From assembly GCA_021234155.1 (NCBI GenBank), contig JAJEKV010000020.1, forward strand, positions 16,855,018-16,919,017: DNA of 64,000 bases. The letters run 5' to 3'. The position numbers were made by a program, and so were the translations under genes. Of the stretch, positions 12,904-45,698 are shown piece by piece. Positions within the stretch are counted from its first letter, which is position 1. The number at the start of each line of letters is the position of its first letter. The notes beneath the pieces were generated by a model. The model saw only the letters and a program-made list of their open reading frames with translations. It ran no database searches and had not been told where the DNA came from. The stretch comes from Isoetes taiwanensis (lineage: Eukaryota > Streptophyta > Lycopodiopsida > Isoetales > Isoetaceae).

Positions 12904-12966
12904 CACTCCAAGTGGAACTTTTGGTAGAGGAGTTTGGCAAGGGATACAATAGAGGGATCTTGAAGA

Positions 12967-13579: not shown

Positions 13580-13905
13580 CTCATAGGGTTTACGTTTGAG
13601 GTGGAAAACGCGGTTCTTTTTCATGGATAACTTCGGTGCACCATCTCTAAACATGAATGCAGAGTCATGCCAACTGAAGAAATGGGGTTCGGATCTATCG
13701 GTCATCCAGAATATCCCAAACAATGTCTTCCTACTGCAAAAGTGGCTCTTGATTTCTAATTGCCATAGCGGGAGAAGAATAGATCCAAACCCCATTTCTT
13801 CAGTTCATATTGCTTCGCGTCTTCGACTGCAACCTCTCGACCATGTCCCAAGTGCAAACCACCAGAGCTCGACCTCCATAACGTAAACCCTTCAATAACC
13901 TAGCA
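13580..13905. repeat. Imperfect palindrome with GTTTACGTTT ends
   Basis: The segment begins AGGGTTTACGTTTGAGG and ends CCTCCATAACGTAAACCC. Its halves are diverged inverted copies: 'GAAGAAATGGGGTTCGGAT' near 13676 pairs with 'GATCCAAACCCCATTTCTTC' near 13781. The same design recurs at 15660-15985. Confidence 0.7.
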
Positions 13906-14445
13906 TCACACAGGGTTTACGTTTCGGAGGCCATATCCTAGTCAGATTCGACCAGGATCTTGCACAATGTCATCGCGTAGAGGGAGGGTGTTGACGCCAG
14001 AAGACAGACCCTTAAAACCTTCTGAAAGCAGCTCGACCTAAAAGTCAATTGGCCTAGGAGGTGGCTGCGGAATACACCATTCCGGAGCCTTTGTACTGCC
14101 CGAACGACAAAACACTTGGGTTTCTACACGGTCAACCGCAGGACGCTTCGCGGTTTGATAAGTTCTCCCGGACCGATCTTGGATTTTTTTGAACCTGCTC
14201 GAAGCAGGTTGCTTGAACAGCGGATTCAACGGTTGGATAGCGAAACCGAGATCCGGGAGGGGGGGCATTGGCATTTTCCCTCCCGGAGGAGCGCTGGCAA
14301 GAAAAGCTGCCTCGACAACCTTTATGATGTCCGTCTCCTGGGGTCTGGCCTCTCCCCTCTGGTGAGGAAGCCGCGCAAAGTCCTGGCCTGGTTCGACTTG
14401 GGGAAGGATGTCAGTGCTTTAAGTTCTTCAAGATCCCTCTATTTA
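13890..14445 (+). repeat. Module copy A (direct, internally deleted)
   Basis: It starts CAGGGTTTACGTTTCGGAGG and ends near GATCCCTCTATTTAACC. Landmarks shared with copies B and C are CATATCCTAGTCAGATTCGA, GAGGGAGGGTGTTGA, ACACTTGGGTTTCTACACGG and CTCCTGGGGTCTGG. Relative to copies B and C it lacks roughly 200 bp between GCTCGACCT and AAAGTCAATTGGCCT. Confidence 0.8.
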
Positions 14446-14645
14446 ACCTTAACTATGTTTGAGCCTAGGTGGCATGTTTGAGCCACCTTGGCATGTTTGA
14501 GCCTAGGTGGCATGTTGGAGCCATGTTGGCTCAAACATGCCAAGGTGGCTCCAACATGCCACACTGGCTCCAACATGCCACCTAGGCTCCAACATGCCAA
14601 GGTGGCTCAAGCATGCCACCTAGGCTCAAGCATGCCATCTAGGCA
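14446..14645. repeat. Mixed-orientation 19-bp satellite block
   Basis: The block begins with minus-orientation monomers (TTTGAGCCTAGGTGGCATG) and changes near 14527 to plus-orientation monomers (AACATGCCAAGGTGGCTCC). It therefore contains its own short inverted repeat. Confidence 0.85.
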
Positions 14646-14867
14646 CTCCAAATGGTGACATGGCATGCCAACTAAGCAAGGCCAAGTTTTGACTAGGCCG
14701 AAAATGAAAAGATGTCCATCTTTGGTCTTTTCATTGGGTGATGTTGGCAAATTTTGGGTGACATGGCTAGATGGTGGTGACATGGACATGATGACTAGGA
14801 CTTTATGCAAGAAATATGATAACCTTTGGAATTTTTGGTAGAGAAGTCTGGCAATGGATAGAATAGA

Positions 14868-15655
14868 GGGATCTTGCGCTGACACCCTTCCCCAAATCGA
14901 ACTAGGCCAGGACTTTGCGTGGCTTCCTCACCAGAGGGAAGAGGCCAGACCCCAGGGGACGAAGCTCAGAAAGGTTGCCGAGGCAGCCTTTCCTGCCAGC
15001 GCTCCTTCGGGCGGGCAAATGCCAATGCCCCCCTTCCCGGAGCTCGATTTCTCTATCCGACCGTTGAATCCACCGTTCAAGTAACCTGCTTTGAGCAGGT
15101 TCAAAAAAATCCAAGATCCGTCCGGGGAAACTTATCAAACCGTGAAGCGTCCTGCGCTCGACCATGTAGAAACCCAAGTGTTTTGTCGTTCGAGCAGTAC
15201 AAAGGCTCCGGAATGGAGATTCGACTTCGCCATATCGTCCAGAATGGTGACATTACCCTAGGGACCAAGTTATACGGTCATTTTTGGCAACGAAAGAAAC
15301 ATGAACCCTCTACATGACAATATTCTGCAGCCATCCCTTACGCCAATTGACTAGGAACGTATTGGAGATGAGCTACTTTGGCACTTCTTGGAGAAAGAGT
15401 AGTCTTCTGCTCACGAAACTTGGTCCCGAGGGTAATCTTGACGTTTTGAGTCCATTGGCAGAGTCAGTTTACAATTTTGGAGTGCGAGAGTTGTCTGTCC
15501 GTGGCCAAGGGCCTTTGGGAGAGGATCTTTGGGGTGAACTGTCTGGAAGGTTTTAAGGGTCCATCTTCTGGCGTCAACACCCTCCCTCTACGTGATGACA
15601 TTGTGCAAGATCCTGGTCGAATCTGATTAGGATATGGCCTCCGAAACGTAAACCC
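14868..15655 (-). repeat. Module copy B (inverted)
   Basis: This is the reverse-orientation copy of the module: GATCTTGCGCTGACACCC on the left pairs with the end of copies A and C, and CCTCCGAAACGTAAACCC on the right pairs with their start. It is the fullest copy together with C. The long frames 14854-15084, 14919-15317 and 15314-15556 are open by chance or are relics; none carries a domain that I recognise. Confidence 0.8.
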
Positions 15656-15989
15656 TGTGTGTTGCTAGGGTATTGAAGTGTTTACGTTTTGGAGGCCGAG
15701 TTTTTGTCGGTTGCACTTGGGACATGGCCAAGAAGCTGCAATTGAAAACACGAAGCAATAGGAATTGACGGAATGGGGTTTGGATTTATCCTCCTCCCAT
15801 AATGACAGATAGAAGCCAAGAGCGCCTTTTGCAGTAGCAAAATTGTTTGGGATCATTCGGGATGGCCAATAGATCCAAACCCCATTCCTTCAATTCCTAT
15901 TGCTTCATGTTTTTAACTGCAGCTTCTTGACCATGTCCCAAGTGCAACCGACTAAATCGCGACCTCCATAACGTAAACCCTTCAATAAC
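15656..15989. repeat. Second imperfect palindrome
   Basis: GTTTACGTTTTGGAGGCCGA at the left and GCGACCTCCATAACGTAAAC at the right are inverted partners. So are GGTTGCACTTGGGACATGG and CCATGTCCCAAGTGCAACC, and GGAATGGGGTTTGGAT and ATCCAAACCCCATTCC. It is homologous to the palindrome at 13580-13905 and separates module copies B and C. Confidence 0.8.
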
Positions 15990-16805
15990 CTAGCAAACCA
16001 CAGGGTTTACGTTTCGGAGGCCATATCCTAGTCAGATTCGACCAGGATCTTGCATAATGTGATCACGTAGAGGGAGGGTGTTGATGCCAGAAGATGGACC
16101 CTTAAAACCTTCCAGAAGCAGTTCGCCCCAAAGGTCCTCTCCTGAAGGCCCTTGGCCACGGATGGGCAACTCTCCCACTCCGGAACTATAAACTGACTCT
16201 GCCAATGGACTCAAGACATCGACATTACCCTCGTGACCAAGTTTTGTGGGCGGAAGACCACCCTTTCTCCAAGAAGCGCCAAGGTAGCTCATGTCCAATA
16301 CGTTCGTAGTCAATTGGCCTAAAAGGTGGCTGCGGAATACTGCCATGTAGAGGTTCGTGTTTCTTTTGTTGCCAAAAATGACCGTATAACTTGGTTCCTA
16401 GGGTAAATTTGTTATTTCGGATGACATGGCGAAGTCAAATCTCCATTCTGGAGCCTTTGTCTTTGCTTTCGAGCGACAAAACACTTGGGTTTCTACACGG
16501 TCGACCGTAGGATGCTTCGCGGTTTGATAAGTTCTTTCAGACAGATCTTGGATTTTTTTGAATTTACTTGAAGCAGGTTACTTGAACGGTGGATTCAACA
16601 GTCGGATAGGGAAACCGAGCTCCAGGAGGAGGGGGGGGGGGGGGGCATTGGCATTTGCCCTCCCGGATCGTTGGCAGGAAAGGCTACCTCCGCAACCTTT
16701 TTGAGGTTCGTCTCCTGGGGTCTGGGCTCTCCCCTCTGGTGAGGAAGCTGTGCAAAGTCCTGGCCTGTTTTGATTTGGGGAAAGGTGTCAGCGTTTAAGT
16801 TGTTC
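15990..16805 (+). repeat. Module copy C (direct)
   Basis: Third copy of the module, in the same orientation as A and opposite to B. It starts at CAGGGTTTACGTTTCGGAGG and ends near GGGAAAGGTGTCAGCG. A run of 14 G lies at about 16632-16645, where copies A and B have shorter runs. Confidence 0.8.
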
Positions 16806-16814
16806 AAACCGCTT

Positions 16815-17362
16815 GGAATGCCTAGGTGGCATGCCTGAGCCACCTTGGCATGTTGGAGCCTAGGTGGCATGTTGGAGCCCACATGGCATGTTTCAACCAC
16901 CTTGGCATGTTTGAGCCTAAGTGGCATATTTGTCACGTTAGAGCCTAAGTGGCATGTTGGAGTCTAGGTGGCATGTTGGAGCCCACGTGGCATATGTTGG
17001 AGCCTAGGTGGCATCTTTGAGCCACCTTGCCATGTTTGTGCCTAGGTGGCATGTTGGAGCCACCTTGGCATGTTGGAGCCTAGGTGGCATGTTTGAGCCA
17101 CCTTGACAAGTTGGATCCCGCATGGCATGTTTGATCCACCTTGGCATGTTTGAGCCACCTTGGCATGTCGGGCCGAGGTGTCATGTTTGAGCCACCTTGG
17201 CATGTCTGAGTCTCCTTGGCATGTTGGAGTCTATGTGGCATGTTTGAGCCACCTTGGCATGTTGAAGCCTAGTTTCCATGTTTGAGCCACCTTGGCATGT
17301 TGAAGCCTTGTTGCCATGTTGGAGCCACCTTGGCATGTTGGAGCCTAGGTAGCATGTTTGAA
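16815..17362 (-). repeat. 19-bp satellite array, inverted (second large block)
   Basis: Roughly 28 minus-orientation monomers (CCTAGGTGGCATGTTGGAG, CACCTTGGCATGTTTGAG) with more substitutions than the block at 12061-12903. Together with that array it gives the element a large-scale inverted layout. Confidence 0.88.
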
Positions 17363-23752: not shown

Positions 23753-24385
23753 TGATACAACGGGCTTCCCTGTCTGCAAAAGCTCAAATTCCTCCCAATT
23801 CTGAGAGTCTGCTAACCAGCTGGATAGCCTCTCTGGGATTCTCTGGAATTCTCTAGAGCTAAGGAAAACACTTAAATTCAACCACAATTTACCAAGAGAT
23901 CTACTGTAGACAGGATTCTATATCATACTAGGCTCTTACGGCTGCTACAATTCTGCAGATCAATTCTTTCTTATACTATCTTAAAAGGTGTCGTGCAACT
24001 AAATTTAATTTCCTTTTACCTTTTGCTAAAATCGGCAGACAGAACCTTTTACTGCTATTCTTGGCAGTCCGGAAGCCCTTTTCCGGCAAACCGACCAGGT
24101 CCGCTGACCCAGGAACTGTTTCTATTCAGTTCGCCTTTTTCCGACAACAAAGGCTCGGTTTTCGATTTTGTCTGTTTTACATGCTTCGTTTGTTTTTTAA
24201 TCTTAACAGTTAAATCGATTCCAATAGTTCCTTTTAGTTAACACGTTTAACTTTTTTAATGGTTCCCTTATTGAAAGTGCAATTTAAAAACGCCTAAGGC
24301 TCAACATGCAATCAAAAGAACCCTTGCCTCTGTGTTTTCTGCAAATCCTTTCTCTGAGCCACGCCCCCAAGCTAGTGCCGTATCA
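23753..24385 (-). repeat. LTR, left copy (633 bp)
   Basis: Bounded by TGATACAACGGGC and TAGTGCCGTATCA on the plus strand. It is homologous throughout to 25941-26679 but lacks about 106 bp near its left end. I count about four to five substitutions in the remaining part. Confidence 0.9.
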
Positions 24386-24400
24386 ATTCCCTCCCTTTCC
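24386..24400 (-). other. Polypurine tract
   Basis: The minus strand reads GGAAAGGGAGGGAAT immediately before the LTR start TGATACGGC, the expected place for a plus-strand primer. Confidence 0.8.
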
Positions 24401-24444
24401 AAGGCTGATCGTCCTCAATCATCTGCCTTTAGGGAGTAACAATC

Positions 24445-24620
24445 TTTCCCAAAGCTAGTCAACTGACTATCTGCTTTGTCTGGAATTTTTCCCAAAGCTA
24501 GTCAACTGACTATCTGCTTTGTCTGGAATAACCACCTTTCTTTCTAAGCTAGTCACCTGACTATCTGCTTTGAAAGGATTTCTTCTAGGCTGGTAAACTT
24601 ACCATCTGCCTTACAATTTT
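24445..24620 (-). repeat. ~42-bp tandem repeats between gag and polypurine tract
   Basis: Two nearly identical units carry AAAGCTAGTCAACTGACTAT and CTGCTTTGTCTGGAAT (24451-24486 and 24493-24528). Two diverged units follow (from 24547 and 24588). Each unit contains the inverted pair TAGTC...GACTA. Confidence 0.85.
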
Positions 24621-24701
24621 TAAGGGTCTGGCTTTTTGTGCTGCAGTCACAATTGCCCCCTCAACACACACACACACACATGTCTACACAGACATTTTAC
24701 T

Positions 24702-25905
24702 CTACTTGTTTTTACCCACGTAGCCAATTTGAAGCCGACTTCTTTCATAGTCTTCGTACTTTTCTTTGTCAAACTTAGCGTGGGAACTTTCAGGAACCTT
24801 TTCAGGAACTTCTTCTGCAACACGAACATGGGCAATCTGCGCAGATGTTCGGGCTTTTGCTCGAGTATCCTCCTTTGGTTGCTCAGGATCTCCTTTGGAT
24901 ACAACTTTTGGACATTGATTCTTATAATGTGGACCTCCACATATAAAACATCCTCCTGGGTGTGCATTTGTCTGTGTTTTGGCCATCCCGCGTTCTCCAT
25001 TGCTTTTCTTCGTATGGATTTCATCATTACTTACTCTGCTCCTCTTATTCTCTCTTTCAGATCCCTTGCCATTGTCTGGCTTAGAATTCTTCTCTTGAGG
25101 GTACCCCTCCCAGATATCATACCGTACTGCACTAGGATTGAGTTTCATCTCTGCTGACTTGACCTTTTCGCCTTTGCTTCATCAATAGTTTGGTTACGCA
25201 AAAGCATAGCTCTGCGTATAATGGATCTCGTAATCCAGCTACAAATTTTCGCATCACTTCACTTTCAGATAGTCCTCCTGGCTGTAATTCTCCCATCTGT
25301 ACCGCTAAGTAGGCGAACTTGGAATAAAAATGATGTACCGATTCATGTTCCCCTTGCTTAAAAAGATCCCACTGTCTTTTAAGATCTGGGTAATAATTTG
25401 CATGCAAGTTGTGCGACTCAAATGCTTTTCTAAAAGCTGCCCAGGTTTTTATCGGAGGTAACAATTTCTTACGACCTTGCCACCATATTCTGGCTACGTC
25501 AGTCAAATATTTGTCCAAGGCCTGCAGTTTCTGCTCCTCTGTGGCTTTTACTCTTTCAAAGAAACTTTCCCAACTGGCCAGAAATCCCAGAACTGCTGGT
25601 GGACTCCGCTTATCTCCGGCATATGACGGCATTCCTTCTACCTTCTCCAACTATTTAATTCGACCTGTTTTGGCATTGGCAACTACAGTAGGAGAATCAG
25701 GTGGTGGTGGAGTTACTGGTGGCATGTTTGCAGGCAAAGGAGGCTGTTGGAATATGTCTGGCAAGTGCCCATACAGAATTGCTACATATTCAAGTTTCCT
25801 CTGGTTCTATGTAGGCATGCCAATCTGTGCTGCAATCTGCGTAGCAGCATTCATAGCCTGATTATACTGGTCTACGGGAAGATTAAATTTGTTCTGGGTC
25901 ATTTC
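24702..25905 (-). pseudogene. Gag with retrotransposon gag domain and zinc knuckle
   Basis: The N-terminus starts near 25905 (MTQNKFNLPVDQ). The gag domain spans 25650-25132, with VLGFLASWESFF, ARIWWQGRKK, WAAFRKAFESH and a KFVAGLRDPLY end. A zinc knuckle CFICGGPHYKNQC (CX2CX3HX4C, one residue shorter than the usual CX2CX4HX4C) lies near 24950. A 15-bp deletion with an in-frame TAG near 25809, a TAG near 25652 and frame changes near 25195 and 25150 disable it. There is no pol downstream. The domain would have formed the retroelement particle. Confidence 0.8.
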
Positions 25906-25927
25906 ACAGGATATTAGGATGCAACAA

Positions 25928-25938
25928 CTCTGATACCA
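25928..25938 (-). other. Primer-binding site, right copy
   Basis: TGGTATCAGAG on the minus strand, two bases after the end of the 5' LTR. Confidence 0.8.
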
Positions 25939-25940
25939 CT

Positions 25941-26679
25941 TGATACAACGGGCTTCCCTGTCTGCAAAACTATCAAACACGGTTAGTCCAAACAGCCTGG
26001 AATCTCCAGATCAAAGTCTCTCGGCACAACTTATCCATCCAACCGGGCTCTGATTTGCAAACACGGCAAGTCTAAGCTCAAATTCCTCCCAATTCTGAGA
26101 GTCTGCTAACCAGCTGGATAGCCTCTCTGGGATTCTCTGGAATTCTCTAGAGCTAAGGAAAACACTTAAATTCAACCACAATTTACCAAGAGATCTACTG
26201 TAGACAGGATTCTATATCATACTAGGCTCTTACGGCTGCTACAATTCTGCAGATCAATTCTTTCTTATACTATCTTAAAAGGTGTCGTGCAACTAAATTT
26301 AATTTCCTTTTACCTTTTGCTAAAATCGGCAGACAGAACCTTTTACTGCTATTCTTGGCAGTCCGGAAGCCCTTTTCTGGCAAACCGACCAGGTCCGCTG
26401 ACCCAGGAACTGTTTCTATTCAGTTCGCCTTTTTCCGACAACAAAGGCTCGGTTTTCGATTTTGTCTGTTTTACATGCTTCGTTTGTTTTTTAATCTTAA
26501 CAGTTAAATCGATTCCAATAGTTTCTTTTAGTTAACATGTTTAACTTTTTTAATGGTTCCCTTATTGAAAGCGCAATTTAAAAACGCCTAAGGCTCAACA
26601 TGCAATCAAAAGAACCCTTGCCTCTGTGTTTTCTGCAAATCCTTTCTCTGAGCCACGCCCCCAAGCTAGTGCCGTATCA
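25941..26679 (-). repeat. LTR, right copy (739 bp, 5' LTR)
   Basis: Bounded by TGATACAACGGGC and TAGTGCCGTATCA. It is the longer LTR copy. The base after its outer end (26680) directly adjoins coding sequence of the thymidylate kinase remnant. Confidence 0.9.
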
Positions 26680-27579: not shown

Positions 27580-29282
27580 TTGAAAGACCCTGCAATGTGT
27601 ATTCTGCTCTCTATAACGTTTAACAATGTGCACCCAGCTGGTAAACCTTTTCCCTGATATGCTGACTTATACAACTGTAAACAAAGAATGTGTTTGCATG
27701 GTTCTGTTTTGGGTTTGTCTTAGCTAAAATAGAACGATCTTTTATGGGGCACTCACTGTTTTTGGGTTTAGGCCAGAGGGACGTTATTAGGGCCAATGTT
27801 TTCACTTCATCTCTTGCTCTTTAATTATGTTGCGCCAACAGTTGTCTAAAAGGGCCTCCAAATCAACAAGCTAAAAACTAGACCTATATGGAATTGGTAG
27901 TAGCTTTTTTTTATGACTCTCCATTTGGAAAGGCGGCAACTTTACGGTGTATAACTATTTAGCCATTGGCTGTTTGAGATTTCTTTACTTTAACCCATCT
28001 ACATTAATTACCTAGATTGAGGAGCCTTGCATCGATTTTCCTGATTTTCCTAAAACTGTTTGTAGAACCAGCTCGAAAATTTGCGCTTGTTCAAAGTAGT
28101 TCAATTGGAGACTACTGACGGTATCATTACTTGTGGAAAATGTATAAGGTCTTATAATGCTGAGGCTAATAAAGTGCAAACTGCCTTATGCTTTGCAATA
28201 AAAAATCAATAACCTTTAGCTTTACATCAAGTTCGTTGTAGTTCGTTCGTTGTAGGTTCATTCTTGATCCATTTGAGCAAATATTTGAATAACATGTGTA
28301 CATAACATTCTATAACCTGGTGTGATGTGTAAAATAATGGTTGAATGTGTAGGGAATTTTCGAATTAATATCAAATGTTATCAAATTTGGCATTGTACAT
28401 ACAAAAAAAAATACATAAGGGGCCTACAACTCAGTAAGGCAATGACCTTGAAATGAGAAATTCGCGTGCCTATGTGTAATGCCTTTATGCATCATCACCA
28501 TGCAAAACATGCAATGATGACGCCTCTTGCTACAAGGTATGTAAAGCACGGGCAAAAGGAATAATAAACATCTCATGTCAGGGATCTCAAGTCATAAGCA
28601 CCATGCTAGAAATCGCCTTGATCCATGTACACTTTATAAACAAAAGAAAACAAAACAACACAAAGCAAAACCCCATGTTCAAACTATTAATAAGCCCCGA
28701 CACATCAAATGATCCAACAAGAACCATGAAAACGGAAGGACAACAAGAAACATGAAAACACACTCTCGGGCCACCGGAGGGCAACCCTCCGTGCGCAACA
28801 CCTTGTTCTTTACTTTGTGTAGTTTTGCTTTCTTTTGAAGACTTATAAAACATATAATTTCATTCAAATGAGTCGAGGTACAATAACAATTATATTCAAT
28901 AAAAAAGATATACCATGATTTGAAGGTATGAGGTGGCTCATGCACCTAAATACTTCCCAATATATATGTTCCTCTCAGTTCCAGCCTTTGGTGCGTCTAA
29001 TCTTAGAGTTTTAAGCATAAACACTCTAACATCCAATAGATCTTGGTTTGAAATATCCATAACCTGGAACCCCACTTTGGCAATAACAGAAATTGGCATG
29101 TCTGCTGAATTTGAGATAACTTAATATATTAGGGCAAGAATATGTTCACTCCTTTCAAATACCCCCTCACAAATTTCAGCACAATTTCATTAAATTTGGA
29201 CAATACCTGAATTCGTGGACTTTTTGTGAAAACCTTACTTCCATGACAGTTTTCTTAGACTAACATATATCCCCAGTGAGTG
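27580..29282. other. No gene recognised
   Basis: Mostly AT-rich, with an A-run near 28402-28412. Short open frames on both strands have no domain that I recognise. It may include the 3' untranslated region of the thymidylate kinase remnant. Confidence 0.55.
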
Positions 29283-30688
29283 CTACAATGCTTCGACAAC
29301 AAACACAGGAATCTTGACAGTGTTGGATAGCTTCTTCTTATTGGAAGGACTCCATGCATAATTAATAGTCTCTATCTCAATGCAGTCACGAGCAGTCGTC
29401 GGCCTCCATCTCCCTTCCAGCAATTGATGTAATTGGCTGGGAACACCTGGTTCCTCATGGGAATAGGCTCCCACCAAGTCACCTAGATAGTCTCGAAATT
29501 GTCTTTCTTATCATCCATTTGGTGGTCTTCGATAGCACACCCTAACCATATCAGACATATGACATCATCAGGGTGCGCCATTATAAACATGCCTTTCTTC
29601 AAATCCATGAATGGATTGAATTCTGGTATGGGTTTATCCTTCCAGGGACCAACATAAGTAGGAATGATGCTTGCAATTGGCTCCACCATTGCTACCACAA
29701 CAGGTATGGCGGCTCGTCCTTGCCTAGTGAGCAGCCAGAAGTCCTCATAAGCATCTTCAATACTGGTGATCTTATCTAGTTGCTGCAAGAGCCCCATCCA
29801 ATATCCAATTGTCGACGTAAATTATGCCAAATATTTGGCCGTCTTTGAAGCACCCTTCAAGCACGCAACCCAATGCAGGATATGCTTATGGATATTGTTT
29901 CAGAGCAGACTGAGGTCTTTCACCGAACTCTTGGGTGCTAATATATTTGGATTTTCAAATGGCATTAAGGGTCTACCATCCTCCCCTTCTTTCCACATTC
30001 TCATTCCTGGAGCAGGTAACCAATCCATGAAAGTAGGATGGGCCTTGTGGTACATGATAGGACATTCACCATTCATCGTGAACTTAAAAGTTAGATTGGT
30101 ATGACCAATCAATCTGTCTTCCCCGTCGGGGATGTACCCTTCTATGAAACCTTTCCAATTTGGAACATTGTCAACAAGATATTGCACAAGTGCATTGAGA
30201 TTACACGTGTTGAATTCATAAAGCAACTCAGGCATGGTTAGCACTTCTGCCTTCTTCAGGGTAGATGAAAGTTTTCCAAACAAAGCATCAATTTGGCTCC
30301 CCAAGTGCATGCCCGCTTTGAGCTCTAAAGCTAGCAAATTGGGCACCTCCCCAGTTTGCTCCCATTGTTGCATGCCCCCTGAGTGCATGTAAACTGTCTG
30401 CGTCGAAATCACCTGGGGTTGCTGGCCCCCCAAGTGCATGCTTGGCTTCATACCGAGCTCTCCAGAGGGAGCAAATTGGGCAGGCGCCCAATTTGGCTCC
30501 CCAAGTGCATGCCTAGCCTTTGTCTTGAGCTCTAAAGCTAGCAAATTGTGCAGGCATTCAATTTGCTCCCCTGGTGCATTCCCCCTGAGTGCCTCGACAT
30601 CATCTGCGGTAGCAAATTGGGCGTCTGCCCAATTTGGCCCCCCAAGTGCATGCTTGCCTTCATGCCTTGAGCTCTCCAGAGGGAGCAA
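29283..30688 (-). pseudogene. Unrecognised element-like protein with SH3/BAH-like C-terminus
   Basis: The minus-strand frame continues from about 30688, with the first plausible core Met at 30235 (MPELLYEFNTCN). It reads DWLPAPGMRMWKEGEDGRPL, then WLLTRQGRAAIPVVVAMVEP, then PDDVICLIWLGCAIED, VTWWEPIP, INCWKG. The pattern 'P..IWLG.AI..... V.WW.P' followed by a Trp resembles a small SH3- or BAH-type reader module. Stops at about 29900, 29822 and 29484 and a frame change near 29400 break it. The N-terminal part to 30245 consists of translated palindromic repeats (LGGPNWADAQF-like). It lies head-to-head with the H3-tail gene at 30811. I do not know the family, and the function is unknown. Confidence 0.5.
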
Positions 30689-30720
30689 ATTGGGCGGACA
30701 TTTAATTTGGCCCCTTTGGT
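30290..30720. repeat. Palindromic minisatellite, left block
   Basis: Five copies of an inverted motif of the form AAATTGGGC...GCCCAATTT lie at about 30335, 30474, 30537, 30612 and 30682. They are joined by CCCCAAGTGCATGC linkers. The perfect core is TTGGGCGGGCGCCCAA in the right block. The same motif recurs at 32490-33140, 33778 and 34722, so both divergent genes carry it. Confidence 0.85.
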
Positions 30721-30810
30721 GTATGCTTTACTTGCTTTTTATATGCTTAGACTTACTCAAGAGATTAGTACCCGCTGATGCGATATACTTCCTTTTGTTA
30801 TGCAGCACCC

Positions 30811-31706
30811 ATGGCAAGAACCAAACAAACTACCAGTGTAGCTGGAACTGGCCCTCGGATAGTGCAAATAGTTGCTGCTGCAAAGGACATAGAGCCGGGT
30901 ATGGTTTTTTGAAGGTATTGAAGTGGTATCAGACCAGATAACTTCTGTTGCTGATAAGTACACCTGGTGCATCAAGATTGACCCCGTACCCTGGATCTAG
31001 CACAAATCACCTCAAGATCTGTGCTTATACTTTGTTGTACCAGGAACTAGGAAGATAAGCAATGCCGGTATAGCAATTGATATGGTTGTTTGCACTGAGG
31101 TGGATGAGGAGATAAATGTTTATGTTGAAGACGTTTTGAACAAGTCCTTTCTTGGGCACATGCTTCTTTTTGCCACTTACGAACCTCAACTCATGACGAC
31201 AAGCATCACTGAAAATGTACAGCCGTGTCAAGCCAAGGGCTGGGCGTTAGCCTCTTATGAGAGACTGGAGAGATCTGGAATAAAAAAACGTGGAGATATA
31301 ATAGATGGTTTCAATATAGTTAGGCAGTGGATTCTTGATCACAAGCAAAATAGGTCTAAAGCCCTTTACACGGAATATCATGGCAAGAATCAACCAAAGG
31401 TGTACGACACACCATGGTTGAAGTCACGTTATGGAGTTCCTAAGAAGGGAGAGGCAGTGAAAAGTACAGAGAAGGTCAAGAGCGTGGCAGCAGAGAAAAT
31501 CGCCATTTTAAAGAAAAAAAGAATAGAGTCTGGCAGTAAACAAAGCATTGAAACACCAGAACTTATTCTCGGAGGTATGCAAAGAAGAGGTCCTAGCTTG
31601 GACTCCAGCCCTGGGTCAAAAAAGTTATCCGAGGAGTCTGTACAAGCTCGGGAGGTGAAGAAACGGAGTAGACACGAGGTAGTGGGGTCCTCCTCCAAGA
31701 GATGTT
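30811..31706 (+). pseudogene. Element-like protein with histone H3-tail N-terminus (N-terminal part)
   Basis: The frame starts MARTKQTTSVAGTGPR at 30811. The first seven residues equal the universally conserved start of histone H3, and the following spacing (a G..PR) recalls its continuation. A frame change near 30914 and a TAG near 31001 interrupt it. The frame is then open for more than 200 codons (31082-31706) with DVLNKSFLGHMLLFATYEP and SYERLERSGIKKRGDIIDGF. A basic stretch (KKKRIESGSK, KKRSRHE) could be a nuclear-localisation signal. It ends at TGA 31706, followed by the acidic run ESEGESEAETRSEE. I see no histone fold, so it is not a histone gene. Few lesions mean recent decay. Confidence 0.6.
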
Positions 31707-31915
31707 GACAAGCCACTCCACCCGAGACTTCATGTGAATCGGAAGGGGAGAGTGAGGCTGAGACTAGATCAGAGGAATGCAAATTGTGAAGTGCTCAACC
31801 TCTGATGGGGACTTCACTCAGGAGAGCAGACGTGGGTTATCTCAGGGCACGATGATAAACATAAAACATAGGGAAAGGATATATTCTCTTGGAGTCGGAG
31901 GTGGATATATTCAAA

Positions 31916-32391
31916 ATGCATGAAGCCCCTGCAAATATGACGTGTAGGGTTATCAGTGCAGAACATATTGACAAGCTTTATGATTCATTCATTAGTATGC
32001 AGATGCATCCACCTTGTGCAGACGTCGTTCCTTATGACCCGAAGACTGGGCATGCAATTAACTAGAAAAGGGCGAGTGATTTGGACAATGCAGACTTCTG
32101 GATTGTAAATGGGAATCACACTATTGATGTTGCCCAGATTCTTGTTAATCATGCTATGGAATGGCCCGCAGAGAGGGCACACTTGAAGGACCTTATATTC
32201 TTCTTCCATGCTAAAAGGAAATATCGGGTGCTTGCTGGAAATCTGACTCCAACGGAGTATGTTAAAGTGAGCCAGGAAAGCAATGACATTACAAAGAATA
32301 CCATTCATATGGATGTCTACTTTGAGCAAATTCAAAAGCTTCGTAATCAATGGGAGTTTTATGGCAAGCCGAAGAAAGGAAAACGTGGACT
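31916..32391 (+). pseudogene. ParB-like domain region of the H3-tail gene
   Basis: In one frame, with a single TAG at 32063, the residues run CRVISAEHIDKLYDSF, then HPPCADVVPYDP, then DFWIVNGNHTIDVAQILVNH, then FFFHAKRKYRV and VYFEQIQKLRNQW. The order 'isaeHi..L..Sf', 'vvP', '[DN]GNHt..A' is that of ParB/sulfiredoxin-like N-terminal domains, whose DGxHR motif would be NGNHT here. It probably belongs to the same gene as 30811-31706. The segment after 32391 leads into palindromic repeats, perhaps an intron. The role could be nucleotide hydrolysis or DNA binding; this is inference. Confidence 0.5.
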
Positions 32392-32472
32392 GTTCCAAGG
32401 AGGCGCATATTCATTAACTCTCATGAATTTTTGCATTCAAGGTGTTTGCTTTATACCCCCCATGCTTTTTTA

Positions 32473-33145
32473 ACATTCTCCCTCTGCGTCAAATTGGGTG
32501 GGTACCCAATTTGGGACCCTGTGTGCATGGGACATGCTAGCTTCACACCCCCTCATCGACTTTAGACATCTCTCTCAAAGTCCAAATTGGGCGGGCGCCC
32601 AATTTGGAGCTCCTGTGTGCAAGCAACATGCTTGTTTGACATTCCCCCTGTCCCTCAGATTGGGCGGGCGCCCAATTTGGGACCATGCGTGCATGGGATA
32701 TGCTAGCTTGACACCCCCCTTATTGACTCTAGACATCCAAATTGGGCGGGCGCCCAATTTAAAGCTTCTGTGTGAAAGCAACATGCTTGTTTGACATTCT
32801 CCCTGTCCCTCAAATTGGGTAGGCTCCCAATTTGGGATCCTGCGTGCATGGGACATGCTAGCTTGACACCCCCTTATCGACTCTAGACATCTCTCTCAAA
32901 GTCCAACAATTTGGAGCTCCTGTGTGCAAGCAAAATGCTTGTTTGAAATTCTCCCTATACCTCAAATTGGGCGTTGGGAACTTATGTGCATGGACATACT
33001 AGCTTAACACCCCTTATCCACTCTAGACATCTCTCTCAAGGTCCAAATTGGGTGGGCGCCCGATTTGGAGCCCTGTGTGCAAGCAATATGCTGCTTGATA
33101 TCCACATTGTGCATCAAATCGGGCAGGCGCCCGATTTGATCCCAA
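32473..33145. repeat. Palindromic minisatellite, right block (~155-165-bp unit)
   Basis: About four tandem units start at ATTCTCCCTCTG (32473), ATTCCCCCTGTCC (32640), ATTCTCCCTGTCC (32797) and ATTCTCCCTATACC (32947). Each unit normally holds two palindromes with core TTGGGCGGGCGCCCAA, separated by GTGCATGGGACATGCTAGC and CTCTAGACATCTCTCTC linkers. The block lies inside the decayed gene between the ParB-like part and the next coding block, as an intron expansion would. Confidence 0.88.
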
Positions 33146-33190
33146 CAATATTCCAATGTTCTAATGTTGCTAGATTGTGCAGGATTAGGT

Positions 33191-34680
33191 TGCCATAGCG
33201 AAGCAGATGCTAAAAAAAGACGACATGTGAGACTATGATTACTTTGTGTATTTGGATGACGAGACATGGAATATATGCACCCAAATTGCTCAGTTATTCT
33301 ATGAGGACCAACTCAAGGATGAGACGGGTGACTCAATAGTAGTTAAAGATCGCCTGAGGATGTTCATGAATAAAAATGGACCATGGAGGAGTATCAAAAG
33401 TTCTTGGATCAGATTAGTATACTAACGGACCAACATCTTTATTGGATCACAATATTTACCAGTCTAGATCGTTTGAGTGAGTGCTTGTACACCATGAAAA
33501 TGATAGACGGTGGTAGTTGGGTATGGGTGGGTGCGTATTAGGACCCCCAAATAAAGACATCTTCTTCCTCTAGAGTCCGCGAGCTTCAGAGTCTTGTGCT
33601 CGTAATGTACATGGCCACAGACCAAGTGGTTGCCCCTGCTCTGCATGACTTGAATCTATGCTTCATGGACAGAGACCATCCTCAAGAGCATGTGAAACTT
33701 CCCCAATACTTGAAGCAAGCTGAGAACATAGAGGAAAACTTGCCTGACCAGGAATGCACAGCAGGTAACAATAGTTGAAATTGGGCGGTCGCCCGATTTG
33801 ATTTAGTATCAATCACCAATCCTGACATTTTTCTTTCTTTCGACATATTTATTGGCTATATCGTCCTGGGGTGATAAGGTTGCAACAGGTGGCATGGGCG
33901 CACGATTGTCGAATCAACTGGACTCCAAGACATGCACATACCCAGTACACAAGTTTATGATGGAAGGTTGCAGTGTGCTGGATTTCTTTTCTGGAAGTTC
34001 CTTTAACCATGCAGCCTTGTGTGAAGGGTACAAGGCATCGTCATTTGAGATTGAAGAGACTATGCAAATGAAGCTGGTGCAAATTTTTGATCAAAGTAAT
34101 GCTTGACGAGAGGAGATCATGTGCCCATGTGGTGCAAAAGATTGCAGAGGGCAAAAAGAAAGTGAATGGCTCCAAGGCCTTGAAATTAGCTATTCCTCCA
34201 CCTCCTTGTCCATTTTCTGCACAAACTGTGCAGGAGTTGCAATCCACTCTCTAGATGACTAAAGAGTCTGTCACAGACCAATTAAAAAGGGTTGCAGGCA
34301 TTGGATCGAAGGACTTATCTTTTTTTCAGAAAGAAGAAAAAGACCATTAATGCTTTGGATGGCATGACACTAGTGTATACCTAAGATGTGATCCAGGGTA
34401 GCTCGAAATTTTAAGAGCTACCATCAGGGATCAGGATCCTCCAATCGTGATGGAAACACAGGAATCTCAATCCGCAGAATCCGTAGAACTAGAGAAAGAA
34501 AGGGAGGCAGAGGTTGAGAAGTCATCTCCATGCAAAGTAGAGGAGGCAGGAGATGCCTCACTAAGCTCCCAAAAATTCATAGCGAGGATGGAGTTGATAA
34601 AATAGGTCACACAACAAGGGGCACTACAAACAGAAGAAGATGAAATTGAAAAGTCTGCTAAAGGCCTGGCTAACCCTTGA
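33191..34680 (+). pseudogene. C-terminal part of the H3-tail gene with methyltransferase-like motif
   Basis: After an AG at about 33190 the frame reads VAIAKQMLKKDDM, TGA, then DYDYFVYLDDETWN and QIAQFYEDQLKDETGD. Further blocks lie at 33546-33775 (VLVMYMATDQVVAPALHDLN) and 33850-34103 (MARLS-type start, CSVLDFFSGSSFNHAALCEGY). VLDFFSGS resembles motif I of S-adenosylmethionine-dependent methyltransferases (V.D.F.G.G), and a charged helix follows. The end (34440-34680) is acidic (ELEKEREAEVEKSSPCK). Several stops and frame changes occur. If the blocks are one gene, it joined a ParB-like and a methylase-like domain. No catalytic (N/D)PP[YFW] motif was found. Confidence 0.4.
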
Positions 34681-35040
34681 CATTTTCTAGTTCTTTAATC
34701 AAGGCCATCATTGAAGCATTCTGGGCGAATTGGGTGCCCACCCAATTTCTAAGTCCCTTAATGTATATTGTGTTCAAAATTTTATAGAACTTACACGTGT
34801 GAAATTTTCTCAAATCAGTTTCATAACTTTTTTCTCTATTATTTAGCATAAGTACATCCAAGAAACCCCTCTATTCTAGACAGTCATTTGAGATCTGTCC
34901 TTGAGACTCATAATAGTTTTGAGGCCGAGACATGGTATTGTATTCATTTAGATAACATAATGCATATCTCTATAACAATTTAAAGCTTTAAGAAGTCTGC
35001 ATCAAGCTAACCATATAAGAGACTTAGATAATGAACTGCT
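34681..35040. other. Spacer between two element-like genes
   Basis: No gene is visible. It holds the last palindrome of the family near 34722 (GAATTGGGTGCCCACCCAAT). Confidence 0.5.
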
Positions 35041-35700
35041 CTTGATGCCCTGTAGATATAGCAGAGTTTCAAGACATATCCATTTCTGCATGTATAAGAT
35101 CTCCAAGAGTGAATTCCTCAATAGTATTTCGGTTATACAGATCCAACCAACTATCCGAATCATTGACAGGGTAAGTAGTGTTATCCAAGAGGATAATTGC
35201 CAAAGCTTCACGCTGCCTTTGCAGGCCTCTCATAAAGAGTCTTGAAAATGGGTTTAAATGAGTTGTGTATCCAAACATCCTCCCTTTTCAGCAGCCTCTT
35301 CAGTGCCTTTGCCTTATAAATATGGAATTTGAGTGAGAGATATCAAGTAATCGGCCAGCTGCACCCTGTCGAGCCGGTCCGTTCATTATACACTCGACCT
35401 GATCCCTACTCTCGAAGCTCTGATCTCCTTCTTTTTGTGCTGGTTGATTATGTTGCCTCATGTTGCAGCTGATTGGCATGGGCCAGAATGGTTTCAGAGA
35501 TTTGGCACTGCATTTCTGATAATGTATGGCCCGCTTGATGCCTGGTTCCAAACATTTTTAGAGCTTGGAGATGGAGAAGGAAACTGTGGATTCACACGAC
35601 TACATCTTCTGTAGATGATGGTGTACCAACATGTGCGAACCCCATTCAGGCAAATGTCTCCCATCTCTGACTCTGTTGCACAAATCACGAAGCATACTTT
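35041..35700 (-). pseudogene. Minus-strand open segments downstream of ULP1 core
   Basis: Frames 35494-35688, 35300-35551 and 35069-35278 on the minus strand look coding in composition (for example LLDNTTYPVNDSDSWLDLYN) and follow the ULP1-like core in the transcript direction. I do not recognise a domain. They may be the C-terminal end of the same decayed gene. Confidence 0.3.
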
Positions 35701-35830
35701 TGCCGCCTCAGAACGGAATCATGCTAATATATTCCATTGTTTTACTTCTTAGAACCATGTACTCTAGATAATAGCTATCATTTAAGATATATATGGACTT
35801 GCGAAAAGTCCATATATAATGAAATTGTGC

Positions 35831-36135
35831 TTATTTGTGCATAAAGGAACATACAGCAGGACCGCAAGAATGACCATCATTTTGATGAGGCCTTCTAGAA
35901 AATTTCACAATATTTGAGGTTGTGAAGCTAAAATTATCGTGTCCAAGCGATTTCAAGAACCTACATTCAAAGTCTGTTGTGATTTTATTGTGATTATATG
36001 ACAACGTCAAAATGCAATGTGCAAGCACTAACCTCTCAATATGTTTGCTTCTGCTGTGCAAGCCCATGCAAAGTGACATATTTCTTGTTTATATCTATGT
36101 GGAAGACATGCACAGCTTACAATAAGAAAATAGGT
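35831..36135 (-). pseudogene. ULP1 (C48) cysteine protease core fragment
   Basis: On the minus strand the frame reads GLHSRSKHIERLV, then FSFTTSNIVKFSRRP, then HQNDGHSCGPAVCSFMHK. The last piece fits the Q....[DS]CG catalytic signature of ULP1/SENP proteases, with the oxyanion Gln and the nucleophilic Cys. The first fits the segment in which these proteins usually have 'yDSLh'. Such proteases cleave SUMO-like conjugates and are often carried by plant DNA transposons. Only the C-terminal half is visible, and stops lie upstream. Confidence 0.6.
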
Positions 36136-40175: not shown

Positions 40176-42030
40176 TTATGAGCAAGAGTACATGGGACCA
40201 GGACCTGTACCTGTCTATGCTGTCCAGAAAGAGAAGAAAAAGGTAAAATGGAAGATGCTGAGGCTCCTGCAGCAGATGTAAGAGCAAAAATCACCAAAGT
40301 GTCTGAGGCATTGGTTGAGGTAACCAAGCAACTCCAAGAGCTAAAGAGCTCAAAGTTTGAGAAGAAAACTTATCCTCCATGTGTGCATTGCTTTAGGGAT
40401 ACTCATACTTCTGACTATTGTTGGTATAGGCCATGCACAAAGTGTGGGAAAAGAGGACACTTTGGCAAAGAATGTCCTGTGTGTGCCTTTTGTAAAGCTG
40501 TAGGACATTATGAGGATAGGTGCAGTGTGAAAGAATACTTTGCTAGGCAAGAAAAATCCAAAACTAATGAACAAAATGCGTCCATAAGATTTGTGCAGGA
40601 AATTGAGGAACAGGAAGAGATAATGGCTGTCCATACCAGGAGAATGAATAATGCCAAAGAGAAAGAACCAGCTCATGCCAATGAGGAAGCTGAGGTCTTG
40701 AAACACAAGGAGGGTGAGCAGACAATGGTTGTGCCTCCTCCTCCTGCTCAAAAGTTTGTCAAAAGAGAAAAGGACTGTGAGGATTTTGAATATTTGCTAA
40801 AGAATTCTAAAATCTGTGTGGACTTGCTGACTTTGCTCAAGATAGCTCCATCTTACAGGAAGAAAGTTCTCAATTTGACCAGAGAGGATGAGTTTGCTTT
40901 AACAAATCATATTGAAGAACATATGCTTACTCAGGAGGATTATGATCCAGGGGCTTTCACCTGTGTTGCCAAAATGGGGAAAAAGATCTTAACTAAGGTT
41001 TTACTAGATGGAGGATCACCCTTGAATGTCATGCCTCATCATGTTATGAGGCTGTGTGGTCTTGAGATAGACAAGAAGGCTCCAATGATATTGAAATCTT
41101 TCTCAAACACGAAAATCAACCCTGTTGGAATAGTCAACAATGTGCCTATTGATGTTGAAGGGATAATGGTTGCAGCTAATTTTGTTGTGGTTGCTTTTGA
41201 AGGAATAGAAGACAAGTCAGACATATATGACTTACTCTTGGGGAGAAAATGGCTCTCTACAGTTGATGCCAGGCCCATATGGTCAAAAGGGGAGTGCACT
41301 ATTTCAAATGGCAAAAAGAAGGTAACTTTATACAATAAGCTGGGAGAATTTGAAAGCATGAATTTCATTGAAGAAGAAATGCTATTATCAAATCCATGTG
41401 GGGAATTTGAGCTGAATGCAATAGAGTTGGAGTCCAGCATGAAGATTCCTAAAGAATTAGCTTCTCCTAAACCAGGTAATTTTGTATACTTGTGGTTCGA
41501 TGGTGGTGTCTCCAAAAGGCTTAATGTGGCTTCTTCTGCTGCTGTTCTCAAAGACTCTTCCAACAGGTTGTTGGCAAAAGTAGGAAGAATCTATCCTAAC
41601 ACCACTTCTAACATGGCAGAGTACAAAGCATTGATTGCAGGTCTCCAAGAGGCAAGAAATTTAAGCATCAGTGAAATAATTATCTTTGGAGATTCTCAGC
41701 TTGTCTGCAAGCAAATATTGGGAGAATATCAGGCTAAAAGTGAAGACATGATTCAGCTCAGAGATCAAGCTATGCAGGAACTGAAGAATTTTGAGACCTG
41801 GGAGCTTTGTCATGTGCCAAGGGAGCAGAATTGTGAGGCTGATTCTCTATGCAAAAGTGTTCTACTTGAACACTTGGCTGAAGGAGCAATACAAGAAGAA
41901 GAACTGGAAAAGAAAGATCTGCAACAATTATACCCTATTCTGGTAATCAATGCAAGTGAAGACAAACAAGTAAAAGAAATTAAAGTAAAAAAGAGAGGTC
42001 TAGATAGAGTGTTGTATGTTGGGGGGATTT
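40176..42030 (+). pseudogene. Ty3/gypsy Gag end, protease and extra RNase H
   Basis: A long frame (40248-42167, useful to about 42025) carries three zinc knuckles near 40378-40530: CVHCFRDTHTSDYC, CTKCGKRGHFGKEC and CAFCKAVGHYEDRC. An aspartic protease follows at about 41000-41270 (VLLDGGSPLNVM with DGG instead of DTG/DSG; DLLLGRKWL). Then comes a complete RNase HI-type domain at about 41490-41860 with WFDGG, MAEYKAL, FGDSQLV and NCEADSL, all four acidic residues kept. The gag start is missing; a +1 frame change precedes 40248. A second frame change sits in a run of six G at 42021-42026, after which the reverse transcriptase continues. Confidence 0.88.
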
Positions 42031-42715
42031 GTTTAAAGAGGAGGATGATGCCTTTGTTACTAAATTCTTTGATGATTGGAAGGACATTTTTGCTTGGGAT
42101 TATGATGAATTGGTTAGTGTTGACAAAAGCATTTGTGAATTTGAAATTAAGATCAAGGAAGGTATGAAACCTGGTTTTAATCAAATAAGCATCAAGGAAA
42201 AGGATCAGCCAAAAACTTCATTTATTACACCTTGGGGAACATTTGCCATGAAAAAGATGCCTTTTGGATTAATGAATGCCTCTGCAACATTCCAGAGAGC
42301 TATGGATACAATTTTTAGAGATATGCCCGCTAATACTTTTCGTGTGTTTTTAGATGACCTCTGCTTGGGAACTTCTCTTGAAAAACATTTTGATATGCTG
42401 ATTATGTTGTTTGCCTTGTGTAGAAAAGGAGGAGTTAGTTTGAATCCAAAAAAATGTGTTTTCCTATCCTCAAAGGGGGAACTACTTGGACATGTGGTGT
42501 CTACAGCAGGTATTCAAATAGGTGAAACCAAGATTGAAGCTTTAAAAAGGTTGGCACCTCCAAAAACCCTCAAGCAGGTAAAAAGTTTCATGGGGATGAC
42601 CAGCTTCTTGAGAATGTATGTCCCTCATTTTTCTCACACTATGAGCCCAATCTCTAACCTTACAAAGGTTGGAAAATTTTCCAAAAGTGAGAGTAAACAT
42701 ATTCTGATAGATTGA
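42031..42715 (+). pseudogene. Ty3/gypsy reverse transcriptase with internal deletion
   Basis: The frame enters with FKEEDDAFVTKFFDDWKDIF, the usual N-terminal lead of Tat/Athila-like RT. After KEGMKPGFNQ it jumps to ISIKEKDQPKTSF, skipping the fingers and the first catalytic Asp, about 80-100 residues. The palm continues with PFGLMNASATFQRAM and FLDDLCLG (second and third Asp), then the thumb (LKQVKSFMGMTSFLRMYVP). TGA at 42713 ends the frame and the RNase H follows. The jump lies between two NQ dipeptides. Confidence 0.88.
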
Positions 42716-43942
42716 GATGAACAATGCCAAGAGTCTTTTGATAAAAGTATTGATGCCATTTGTAAGTCCATCCTGCTCAAGCCTCCTGATCTAGAGAAAC
42801 CTTTCAAGGCTTATATTAGTGTCACAAAAAGAGCAATTGGTTTGGCATTGCTGCAAGAAGATCATGTGATTGCTTTTGCAAGCAAGATGTGGTCTGACAC
42901 TGAACTGAGATATCCCAGGTTGGAAAAGAGTGCAGCAGCCTTGATGTTCTTGATAGAGAGACAAGGGCACTTGCTTCAAAACAGTCAAGTTCAAGTATTT
43001 ATGAGGCAGAATCCTTTATCACTTCTTTTTGCAAAAAAAACAACCAAAAGCTAAACTGTGCAGGTGGGCTTGTAAGGTCCAAGCTTATGATATTATTGTG
43101 AAAGTGGTAAAGCTAATTGAGAATCCCAGTTCTTATCTTCCCCATATGCTCTTTGAGCATGAAGATCAAGATGGTTTATGCAATGATGATAATATGACTA
43201 ACTTGGTTTCTTTTGATGCAGAGAATACAGACTGGCAGCATGAAGTTAGAAATTATCTTGAGAACAATGAGGGACCCGAAAATTTGAACAGCAGTCAAGA
43301 GAGGAGATTTAAAGACAAGTGTAAAAAGTTCAGGCTGATCGAAGGTGTTTTATGCAAAATTGATAAAGAAGGAATCTTATTGAGGTGTGTGGATGAGGAA
43401 GAAGCCAGAATGATAATTGAAGCATGTCATGAAGGAATATGTGGAGGACATTTTGCAGCAGACACAACTGCAAAAAAGATCTTGAGGTCAGGATATTTTT
43501 GGCCTACTCTTTTTAAGGATTGCTACAATACTATAAAGTGCTGTCATAAATGTCAGATTTTTGGTAGGAAAACTCTACAACCAGTAGCCCTTACTGCAAT
43601 AACATCTCCTGGACCTTTTCAAACATGGTGTTTGGACTTCATAGGCCCCATAGATCCACCCTCCTCAGCTCAACACCAGTTTATACTAGTGGCCACTGAT
43701 TATTTTACCAAATGGGCAGAAGCAATTCCTTTGAGAGAAGCAAATGCTCAAGCTACTGCAAGATTCCTCCATGAGAACATTTGTGCCAGATTTGGCATTC
43801 CCTTCAAAATAATCTCTAACAGGGGTAGCCAATTTATCAATCATATAATTACACTCTTGCTCGCCACCTTGAAAGTCAAGCACATTAAGAGTCCATCCTA
43901 TTATCCTCAAGGCAATGGCCAGGCAGAAATGGTGAGTCCTCC
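42716..43942 (+). pseudogene. Ty3/gypsy native RNase H and integrase
   Basis: A degenerate RNase H lies at about 42790-43050 (KPFKAYISVTKRAIGLALLQ, where the first catalytic Asp is not evident; ELRYPRLEKSAAAL). After a frame change near 43030 the integrase frame runs to 43942. It has the zinc-binding HHCC (ACHEGICGGH, CCHKCQIFG), the first catalytic Asp in WCLDFIGPI (about 43634), an Asn (AAC, 43818-43820) where the second Asp belongs (ISNRGSQF), and Glu in YYPQGNGQAE. Homology stops abruptly after QAEM. No LTR was found on either side. Confidence 0.88.
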
Positions 43943-45698
43943 CAACTCCTTCTTGATACCACGCAGTTCTTTATAACTGTAGGAAAAAATATGCTTGAAT
44001 TTTTTAAAGAGCTTGAGGGCACGTTCCTACATTGTCGGTCCGTGCAGGTATAAAACAGGAAAATATCTGGAGTTGCAAGGTCAGGCTGGTCAAAAGCAAC
44101 AAACTCGGCCATGAACACTGCAGCGAGACCTTCAGAAGTCGATCAAAACATAAAGGTCGGCCATGGGAGCAGAGTTGCTAAGACCGATCAAGAACATTGC
44201 TGCAAAACATTAGTTAGCAAACCAAAAAACAATCCAATGAAGAAGCCATAGATCGGTTTGTTTAGAAAGAGCAGAACCCAATGGTGCAAGTATGACTTAA
44301 GGCGGCTAAAATACAACTGCAACTCTGTTACGTGGGAAGGGAGAAAATCTGTTATATGCATTAAAGAAATACTGTCACAGCTATGGCCTACAAGAACCAC
44401 CTGCCGTTTTCAAAATGCCACAGAGAATATAGAGGCGAGCTCAACCGAAGAATCTTAGTTCTTCGACCGGCCTATGGGTTCTCATGCAGCAAGAAGCTAA
44501 GCAAGCATTCAAAATCTTCTGTTTGGCTTTCTCCGCCTAATTCTAGCAGCTTTGTACTCGCCATAGCTCCACTGTTTGGTGCTAATGCCCCCTCACAGCC
44601 TTCACGCGTAATGACCAGTAGGTTTAAATTACGCCATTATTATCCAAGAATTATAATGCAAAATATGTGTGCAAACATTGGGGAGCGGCGCCGCTTTTCC
44701 TGTTTCTTGTATACCGCTTCCCTTCCCCTGTTCGAGTGCCTATGCGACATGCAAATCTTCGGGCCATGTGCCCACATAGAGCTTTTCAGCCCATGTGCCC
44801 ACACAGAGCTCATGCGCCCAGACAGAGCTCAATCTCAAGCTCTCATAGAGCTCAATGCTGAGCTCAATACTACTGCTTTTTACATGAATCAGGTAGGTTG
44901 TGGGCTTGTTTTGATGTTTTGCTTCCTCTGTACAAGCTGGGGACCTGTAATAGCTAATGATCGCCGATTCAGGTACTTTTTAATGGAGCCTCTTTTTAAC
45001 ACAATGCAGCCGCTTCTTGATCTTGGAAGATCACATAAACCAACCACCTTTTTCAAGATTTAACAAAGAAATCTCATCTGACCAGCTTCCATTCACGCAA
45101 AGAATCTGTCGGATCAAAGCAAAGGAGTGGGAATTTAAACCCACTGATCACTACTCCTGTAATTGTCGTGGTTCAGGCCATTCTGCCTGTAAAGGGCTCC
45201 AGTGGTGCCGCCAGATCGTGCGCCGCCTCGTCTGGTGGCGCTGCCAGAGCCTTTTACAGTGCAGAATGTCCCTCCTCATGTCAATTACCTAGTACATAAT
45301 ACATGTGGCCTGCAAAGCAGGTATCCTCGGCTCCCATTCTATCATGGCCATCCTCCCAGAATATCCCATCACATATACTCAATAAGACTAATTCACGCCT
45401 TCAAAACGTCATTTCCCCCCTCCACAACAAGGGTTGCCCATGGGCAACCCAAAAATCAAACTACGTTATATAGGTTTGGGGGGGTATTTACCAATAATGC
45501 ATGTCGTTTTTGTTTTTTGGGATGGCACTTTGGAGATTCTAAAAATTAGGGTAGGGATATGAAACTAGCCAGGATTTAAAATTTAATGATCTCCTCGTAC
45601 CCCCGCCTCCGCCTCAACGGTAAAATTTGAACCGAGGCTTATATTCCTTTAGAAGGCTACGCTAGTTGGAGAGGTCCTCCTGCTCGGCGCTTCTGAAA
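43943..45698. other. Intergenic region upstream of the SAP-domain gene
   Basis: The open frame 44383-45063 (226 aa) has no recognised domain and contains internal repeats (CCCATGTGCCCACA, CAGAGCTCAT), so I do not call it a gene. A 29-bp imperfect inverted repeat (45187-45215 and 45231-45259) could form a GC-rich hairpin. The promoter and 5' untranslated region of the following gene must lie here, but I could not fix a TATA box. Confidence 0.5.

Follow-up and report, generated by a model that had tools for sequence, protein, structure and literature searches.

A histone H3-tail sequence recurs in a repeated gene of an inverted-repeat element in Isoetes taiwanensis

Introduction

Histone mimicry occurs in viruses and in host enzymes. 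Influenza NS1, with the sequence ARSK, and the ARKT motif of G9a are examples, each an H3-like peptide on an unrelated protein. Chromodomain LTR retrotransposons (chromoviruses) are mobile elements that read H3. Here we describe a repeated gene of the quillwort Isoetes taiwanensis, termed the tail gene, in which residues 1-8 of histone H3, initiator Met included, are identical in 21 of 40 loci. The family differs from histone H3 in that K9 is replaced and no histone fold was found. Set against the NS1 and G9a mimics, the match here extends to eight residues, a plant transposon gene carries it, and the segment could lie inside the protein. If the mimic reading holds, the element is like the chromoviruses in using histone-tail recognition, but it would present the H3 tail rather than read H3. 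Another family of the same genome (L032, L033, L038) also starts MARTKQTAR and is also repeated; it differs from the tail gene in having a charged linker of ~300 residues, a full H3 fold and, in many copies, K9.

No transposon with an H3 tail was described among the full-text literature matches listed, a set that leaves most subscription papers and preprints outside its coverage. Histone mimicry as such is known; what is new, as far as can be told, is that a transposon gene conserves an H3 tail in a genome whose repeated H3-fold family bears that tail too. Were the mimicry true, it would offer a testable case of transposons imitating a histone instead of reading it, and the natural variants of the tail (K9 kept, K9 lost, K4R, MARTKSTAR and MARIKKTAR) could be used to ask which residues it depends on.

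Results and Discussion

A decayed copy of the tail gene inside an inverted-repeat element

The window is the whole stretch of DNA analysed, 64,000 nucleotides in length. The frame at 30811 starts MARTKQTTSVAGTGPR and meets a stop at codon 34. Reading of the frame confirmed the MARTKQT that had been noted there as identical to the start of histone H3, and the H3-tail codons of this copy (30811..30837, plus strand) spell MARTKQTTS, one of the poorer tails, with TTS where most homologues have TAR. A second frame follows and runs to a stop at 30998-31000. The two lesions counted earlier ahead of a long open stretch are correct for that stretch, and more lie 3' of it: a stop at 31706-31708, a TAG at 32063-32065, and TTAACT at the position where L022 and L024 carry the donor GTAAGT. 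The 30811 frame is a dead copy of a repeated gene within a quillwort inverted-repeat element. The preliminary description had suggested recent constraint or a young copy; constraint is seen in the family, whereas the window copy is decayed. The features of the element and of the gene are as follows.

29178..35831, no strand: mobile element with imperfect 24-bp terminal inverted repeats, the arms 92% complementary; related ends occur in other copies
29178..29201, plus: left terminal inverted repeat AGCACAATTTCATTAAATTTGGAC; L012 and L014 cease to be homologous to the window near here
30050..30301, minus: remains of a divergent gene with a weak DUF7869 match (PF25273, E 2.4e-5, 24.5 bits against a cut-off of 26.0)
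30335..30709, no strand: five copies of a 24-nt palindrome, CAAATTGGGC to GCCCAATTTG, from a repeat search, within the presumed first intron
30804..30805, plus: AG of the inferred 3' splice site, which falls between TTATGCAG and CACCC ATG in an alignment of 20 copies
30811..32413, plus: tail-bearing exon, a pseudogene copy (535 codons in L026), placed by homology and by the L026 open frame, with the exon end set by comparison
31001..31705, plus: longest surviving open stretch, 235 codons
32066..32413, plus: region with an NGNHT motif, ParB-like according to the preliminary description; no family match above cut-off
32490..33138, no strand: region of the second intron, where the 24-nt palindrome occurs seven times; splice sites in L022, L024 and L026
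33183..33775, plus: remains of the next exon (DYDYFVYLDDETW...); compared with other copies, sequence is deleted near 33374; limits approximate
33851..34602, plus: remains of the last exon with VLDFFSGSS, similar to a methylase motif (PHROG 498); placed by homology, limits approximate
35808..35831, minus: right terminal inverted repeat AGCACAATTTCATTATATATGGAC; L016, L018, L020 and L022-L026 end similarly on the right

The element thus ends in terminal inverted repeats as a TIR DNA transposon does, and the transposon-like setting first proposed for the gene was borne out. At the window copy, the one for which both flanks were compared, inspection by eye found no target-site duplication. We infer that the divergent DUF7869 gene encodes the transposase of the element and the tail gene an accessory protein. 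A viral origin of the tail gene was rejected, since no pattern stretch on a viral contig encodes a relative; three viral-contig scans with exon alignments (19, 33 and 18 pattern stretches) confirmed none.

Retention of the tail across the genome

The genome searched comprised 1,658,258,908 bases in 1110 contigs, in agreement with the 1658.30 Mb in 204 scaffolds and 909 contigs given for the published assembly (PMC8566536). A DNA search with positions 30811-31706 returned 41 matches, with 40 loci scored among 182 candidates, and the place homologous to the tail was read in all 40 (20 long and 20 short, window included). MARTKQT was exact in 26 of them, again counting the window (14 of the 20 long and 12 of the 20 short loci), while the longer MARTKQTAR was exact in 12 long and 9 short loci. 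The 14 loci lacking exact MARTKQT fell into three groups. Eight carried MTRTKQT (two loci), MARTRQT, IARTKQI, IARTKQT, MAVTKQT, MARTKQI or MARIKQT; in four the start was broken by a stop (L052, L063, L066, L068); two had no homologous start (L050, L056). In L013, K4 is changed to R.

The position of H3 K9 was replaced in the homologues, mostly by V or M. K9-S10 occurred in none of the 40 loci and in none of ten more distant starts described below, so the full H3 sequence ARTKQTARKS is not reached.

A protein search with the 535-codon L026 exon gave 94 matches, 81 of them scored among 4664 candidates. Six matches were stop-free from residue 1 to 534 or 535, and four of these had exact MARTKQTAR (L026, L058, L059, L091). 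The remaining two read MARTKSTAR (L090) and MARIKKTAR (L092), and the exact tail is therefore not kept everywhere. Among ten deeper starts with 52-68% identity, Met was found in 10/10 and MARTKQTAR in 6/10; alignment from residue 1 was the basis for picking them, so the sample is tilted towards copies that retain Met.

Absence of the MARTKQT start from related copies, or an ATG never joined to the downstream frame in any intact copy, had been named as signs of coincidental resemblance. Neither came true: in L026 a single frame holds both the tail and the downstream gene, staying open for 590 codons that start at MARTKQTAR and take in the NGNHT region, and the 26 loci above share the start. In longer open copies the downstream regions form exons of the tail gene itself.

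The exon is under constraint: among 13 pairs drawn from 12 open-frame copies, dN/dS was 0.10-0.31 in 11 pairs, with a value of 0.43 for L010/L011 and saturated dS for L023/L028. Over codons 1-9 of six chosen copies, one of the 15 pairs was identical and each of the other 14 differed by 2-8 synonymous changes and 0 nonsynonymous ones, but the set leans to intact tails: L031 and L074 were drawn with tail-requiring patterns and the other four were chosen with the tail; L013 with its K4R lies outside it. A genome pattern search for MARTKQTA[R/S] gave 1888 matches against 0 for the reversed control. That MARTKQT resembles H3 by chance is accordingly very improbable; we rejected this explanation on the conservation among homologues, most of which keep the tail through synonymous codon changes, and on the pattern control.

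Gene structure and the position of the tail

The preliminary description had placed the H3 tail at a free N-terminus. For the window family this is unsupported as stated, given an apparent 3' splice site and an in-phase upstream exon. TACTAAT stands ahead of the tail ATG in many of the 20 aligned copies, and roughly 1 kb 5' of the tail lies an exon with a GT donor at its end. Its phase fits that of MARTKQT and its pattern is M-[E/A]-x-R-P-x-[K/T]-x-G-[K/N]; seven copies read MEKRPLKEGK, MERRPLKGGK, MEQRPLKGGK, MEHRPSKAGN, MESRPSKGGK, MESRPTKGGK and MASRPTTGGK. A spliced product would be, for example, MESRPTKGGK-GL-MARTKQTAR, with 2 or 3 residues between exon and tail. The exon was broken or partly deleted in L012, L013, L016 and L024, and none was recognised for L010, L011 and the window copy.

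The R, P and G of the upstream exon are kept with synonymous codons. Nonsynonymous differences exceeded synonymous ones in nine of ten pairs, which makes its coding status likely but short of proven. Its frame and its retained R, P and G make a free N-terminus improbable for the tail of the long form, and the main product of the window family may carry ARTKQTAR internally. Pointing to a free N-terminus is that the Met is kept while the residues directly before it change freely (AP, AS, GL, GIN); the nine residues from Met onwards stay.

Two introns 3' of the tail exon have clean splice sites in common in L022 and L024. The first of them is shared by L026 too, and the second lacks both donor and acceptor there. 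The two exons after the tail exon are about 355 and 300 codons long, giving a product of ~1,200 residues from four exons, assembled from different copies. The 24-nt palindrome CAAATTGGGCGGGCGCCCAATTTG was found in 14 copies within 30335-34749, the two intron regions holding 12, and it also occurs 5' of the tail in other copies of the gene.

We consider that the ARTKQTAR segment may act as a short histone mimic toward proteins that bind the H3 tail, and put the probability of this reading at about 0.45. The segment would offer a docking sequence to host H3K4 readers, writers or erasers, or to H3 chaperones, and docking would either hold the element protein on open chromatin or draw H3-binding factors to the element. 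A short form made from the tail Met would give a free H3 N-terminus; alternatively a long form, with 12-13 residues more, would offer ARTKQTAR internally. K9 is the lysine used for silencing plant transposons, and the mimic would be one without K9, and so without that lysine. In favour of the mimic reading are the retained starts, the solely synonymous changes in codons 1-9, the low dN/dS of the open exons, the variable residues ahead of the kept Met and the second family with the tail on a real H3 fold; against it are the in-frame upstream exon, the diverged tails MARTKSTAR and MARIKKTAR and the selection built into the six-copy and deep-start samples.

The tail could also be a substrate rather than a lure, with host H3K4, H3R2 or H3T3 enzymes modifying it and so switching the element protein on or off. 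Such a role would suit an internal segment too, and most homologues keep K4 and its neighbours but lack K9; the R for K4 in L013 speaks against it, and we regard it as quite improbable.

Domains of the predicted protein

The statement that the protein has no histone fold was right within L026 exon 1 and L022 exons 2 and 3, none of which matched PF00125. The ParB-like region found no support: the NGNHT region had no match to ParB in Pfam, PHROGs, PDB or phages, and its fold model, with a mean pLDDT of 37.4, was set aside. The methylase likeness fared better in part. The last exon matched PHROG 498, a DNA methyltransferase, weakly (E 0.0038 and 0.0076), and a phage search with it gave 65 records; among the eight listed, seven were annotated as methylase or methyltransferase (E 0.2-5). 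As evidence for a SAM-binding region of the FxGxG type, these matches are weak yet consistent; on the other hand, the tail gene had no methylase match in Pfam, and by eye exons 2 and 3 showed no catalytic DPPY-type motif. Sub-cut-off Pfam matches of the tail gene were Ig_NUP210_9th, DUF3634, bPH_9 and Mce4_CUP1.

A second tail-bearing family with an H3 fold

Extending the tail pattern by the next codon gave 701 matches with V, I or M and 25 with K then a WSN codon as in H3. A sample of 20 pattern places was taken in list order, passing over loci already read and two others on C35. To the eye, going by the leader and the residues after the tail, 15 looked like a second family, 1 like the window family and 4 like two further kinds. 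Members of the second family, including L032, L033, L036, L038 and L041-L043, have the MARTKQTAR tail and the charged linker.

Downstream frames matched the core histone domain in L032 (E 1.6e-28), L033 (7.1e-27) and L038 (2.6e-25), and the L033 fold matched H3.3 in PDB (E 1.4e-29). Tail and fold lie in one frame with one stop between them in L033, and in different frames in L032 and L038. With the L033 fold as query, 129 matches were scored among 12,333 first-look candidates. Four of these were probed at a guessed distance and three had the tail, the fourth probe having missed the start. By arithmetic, each of these three tails lies 330-333 bases ahead of the fold and shares its frame; the frames there (447, 424 and 423 codons), free of stops, have room for both. 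Over four loci the fold had dN 0.07-0.27, with dS saturated in 5/6 pairs.

Upstream of the tail, 21 of 30 second-family copies have an in-frame stop ahead of the ATG, and 12 of the 30, only 15 of which had more than 60 upstream bases covered, have TATAAA at -102 to -112. The stops and TATAAA make it more likely that the tail of this family is a real N-terminus. Against a clean N-terminus, an ATG directly precedes the tail ATG in the three probed copies and in L044, L046, L079 and L082.

An LTR retrotransposon as carrier of the H3-fold family was disfavoured, no partner having been found at the usual LTR distance among the matches scored. In L036 the 600 bases ahead of the ATG recur elsewhere, with 43 matches (40 scored among 2782 candidates), and the nearest same-strand pair of this upstream repeat on one contig was 21.6 kb apart. 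One copy (L049) nevertheless had a piece of Retrotrans_gag (25.2 bits against a cut-off of 24.1) about 4 kb 3' of the tail. GGCGCC before the second-family ATG was considered as a primer-binding site and dropped, because the stretch varies between copies.

The window-family tail was probably taken from H3, as was that of the separate family with a whole H3 fold. As an alternative to mimicry, the tail may be an inherited relic: the element would at some time have become joined to the first exon of H3 or to the beginning of the H3-fold family, and the piece would have been kept as a start codon, nuclear signal or structural cap rather than for any likeness to H3. The identical tail on many copies of the H3-fold family in the same genome fits such a history, the basic residues could serve nuclear entry, and MARTKSTAR and MARIKKTAR stand in stop-free exons. 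T3, Q5, T6 and A7 are, however, among the residues that survive synonymous change across the chosen subfamilies, a retention beyond the need of a generic basic signal, and we hold the relic explanation to be possible though somewhat doubtful.

The histone-mimic reading has a broader version, which we consider unlikely: the H3 tail would be a module common to unrelated repeated elements, on a tail-only accessory protein in the inverted-repeat transposon and, in the other and very numerous family, on an outsized H3 of tail, long charged linker and histone fold, and the elements would present or deposit tails of their own, steer the H3K4 machinery and escape K9-based silencing. More generally, the observations suggest that mobile DNA in the quillwort copies or borrows chromatin signals of its host.

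Two further kinds of start were observed. L029, L077 and L087 share a repeated one that reads MARTKQTARIHPVV followed by a stop, with TATAAA shortly upstream, and L045, L076 and L078 start MARTKQTARK[A/Y/F]xERPTLSMAxxAAGRHVKK, with K9 kept.

Other features of the window

Extended arrays in either orientation, built on a 19-nt unit around GCTCCAACATGCC, occupy 12058-17361. A direct repeat at 24000-26593 has copies of at least 300 nt, 99% identical and 2294 nt apart, which could be a young pair. By eye, frames at 40248-43976 (plus strand) resemble a Ty3-type gag-pol, and frames at 54564-57125 (minus strand) resemble a LINE reverse transcriptase.
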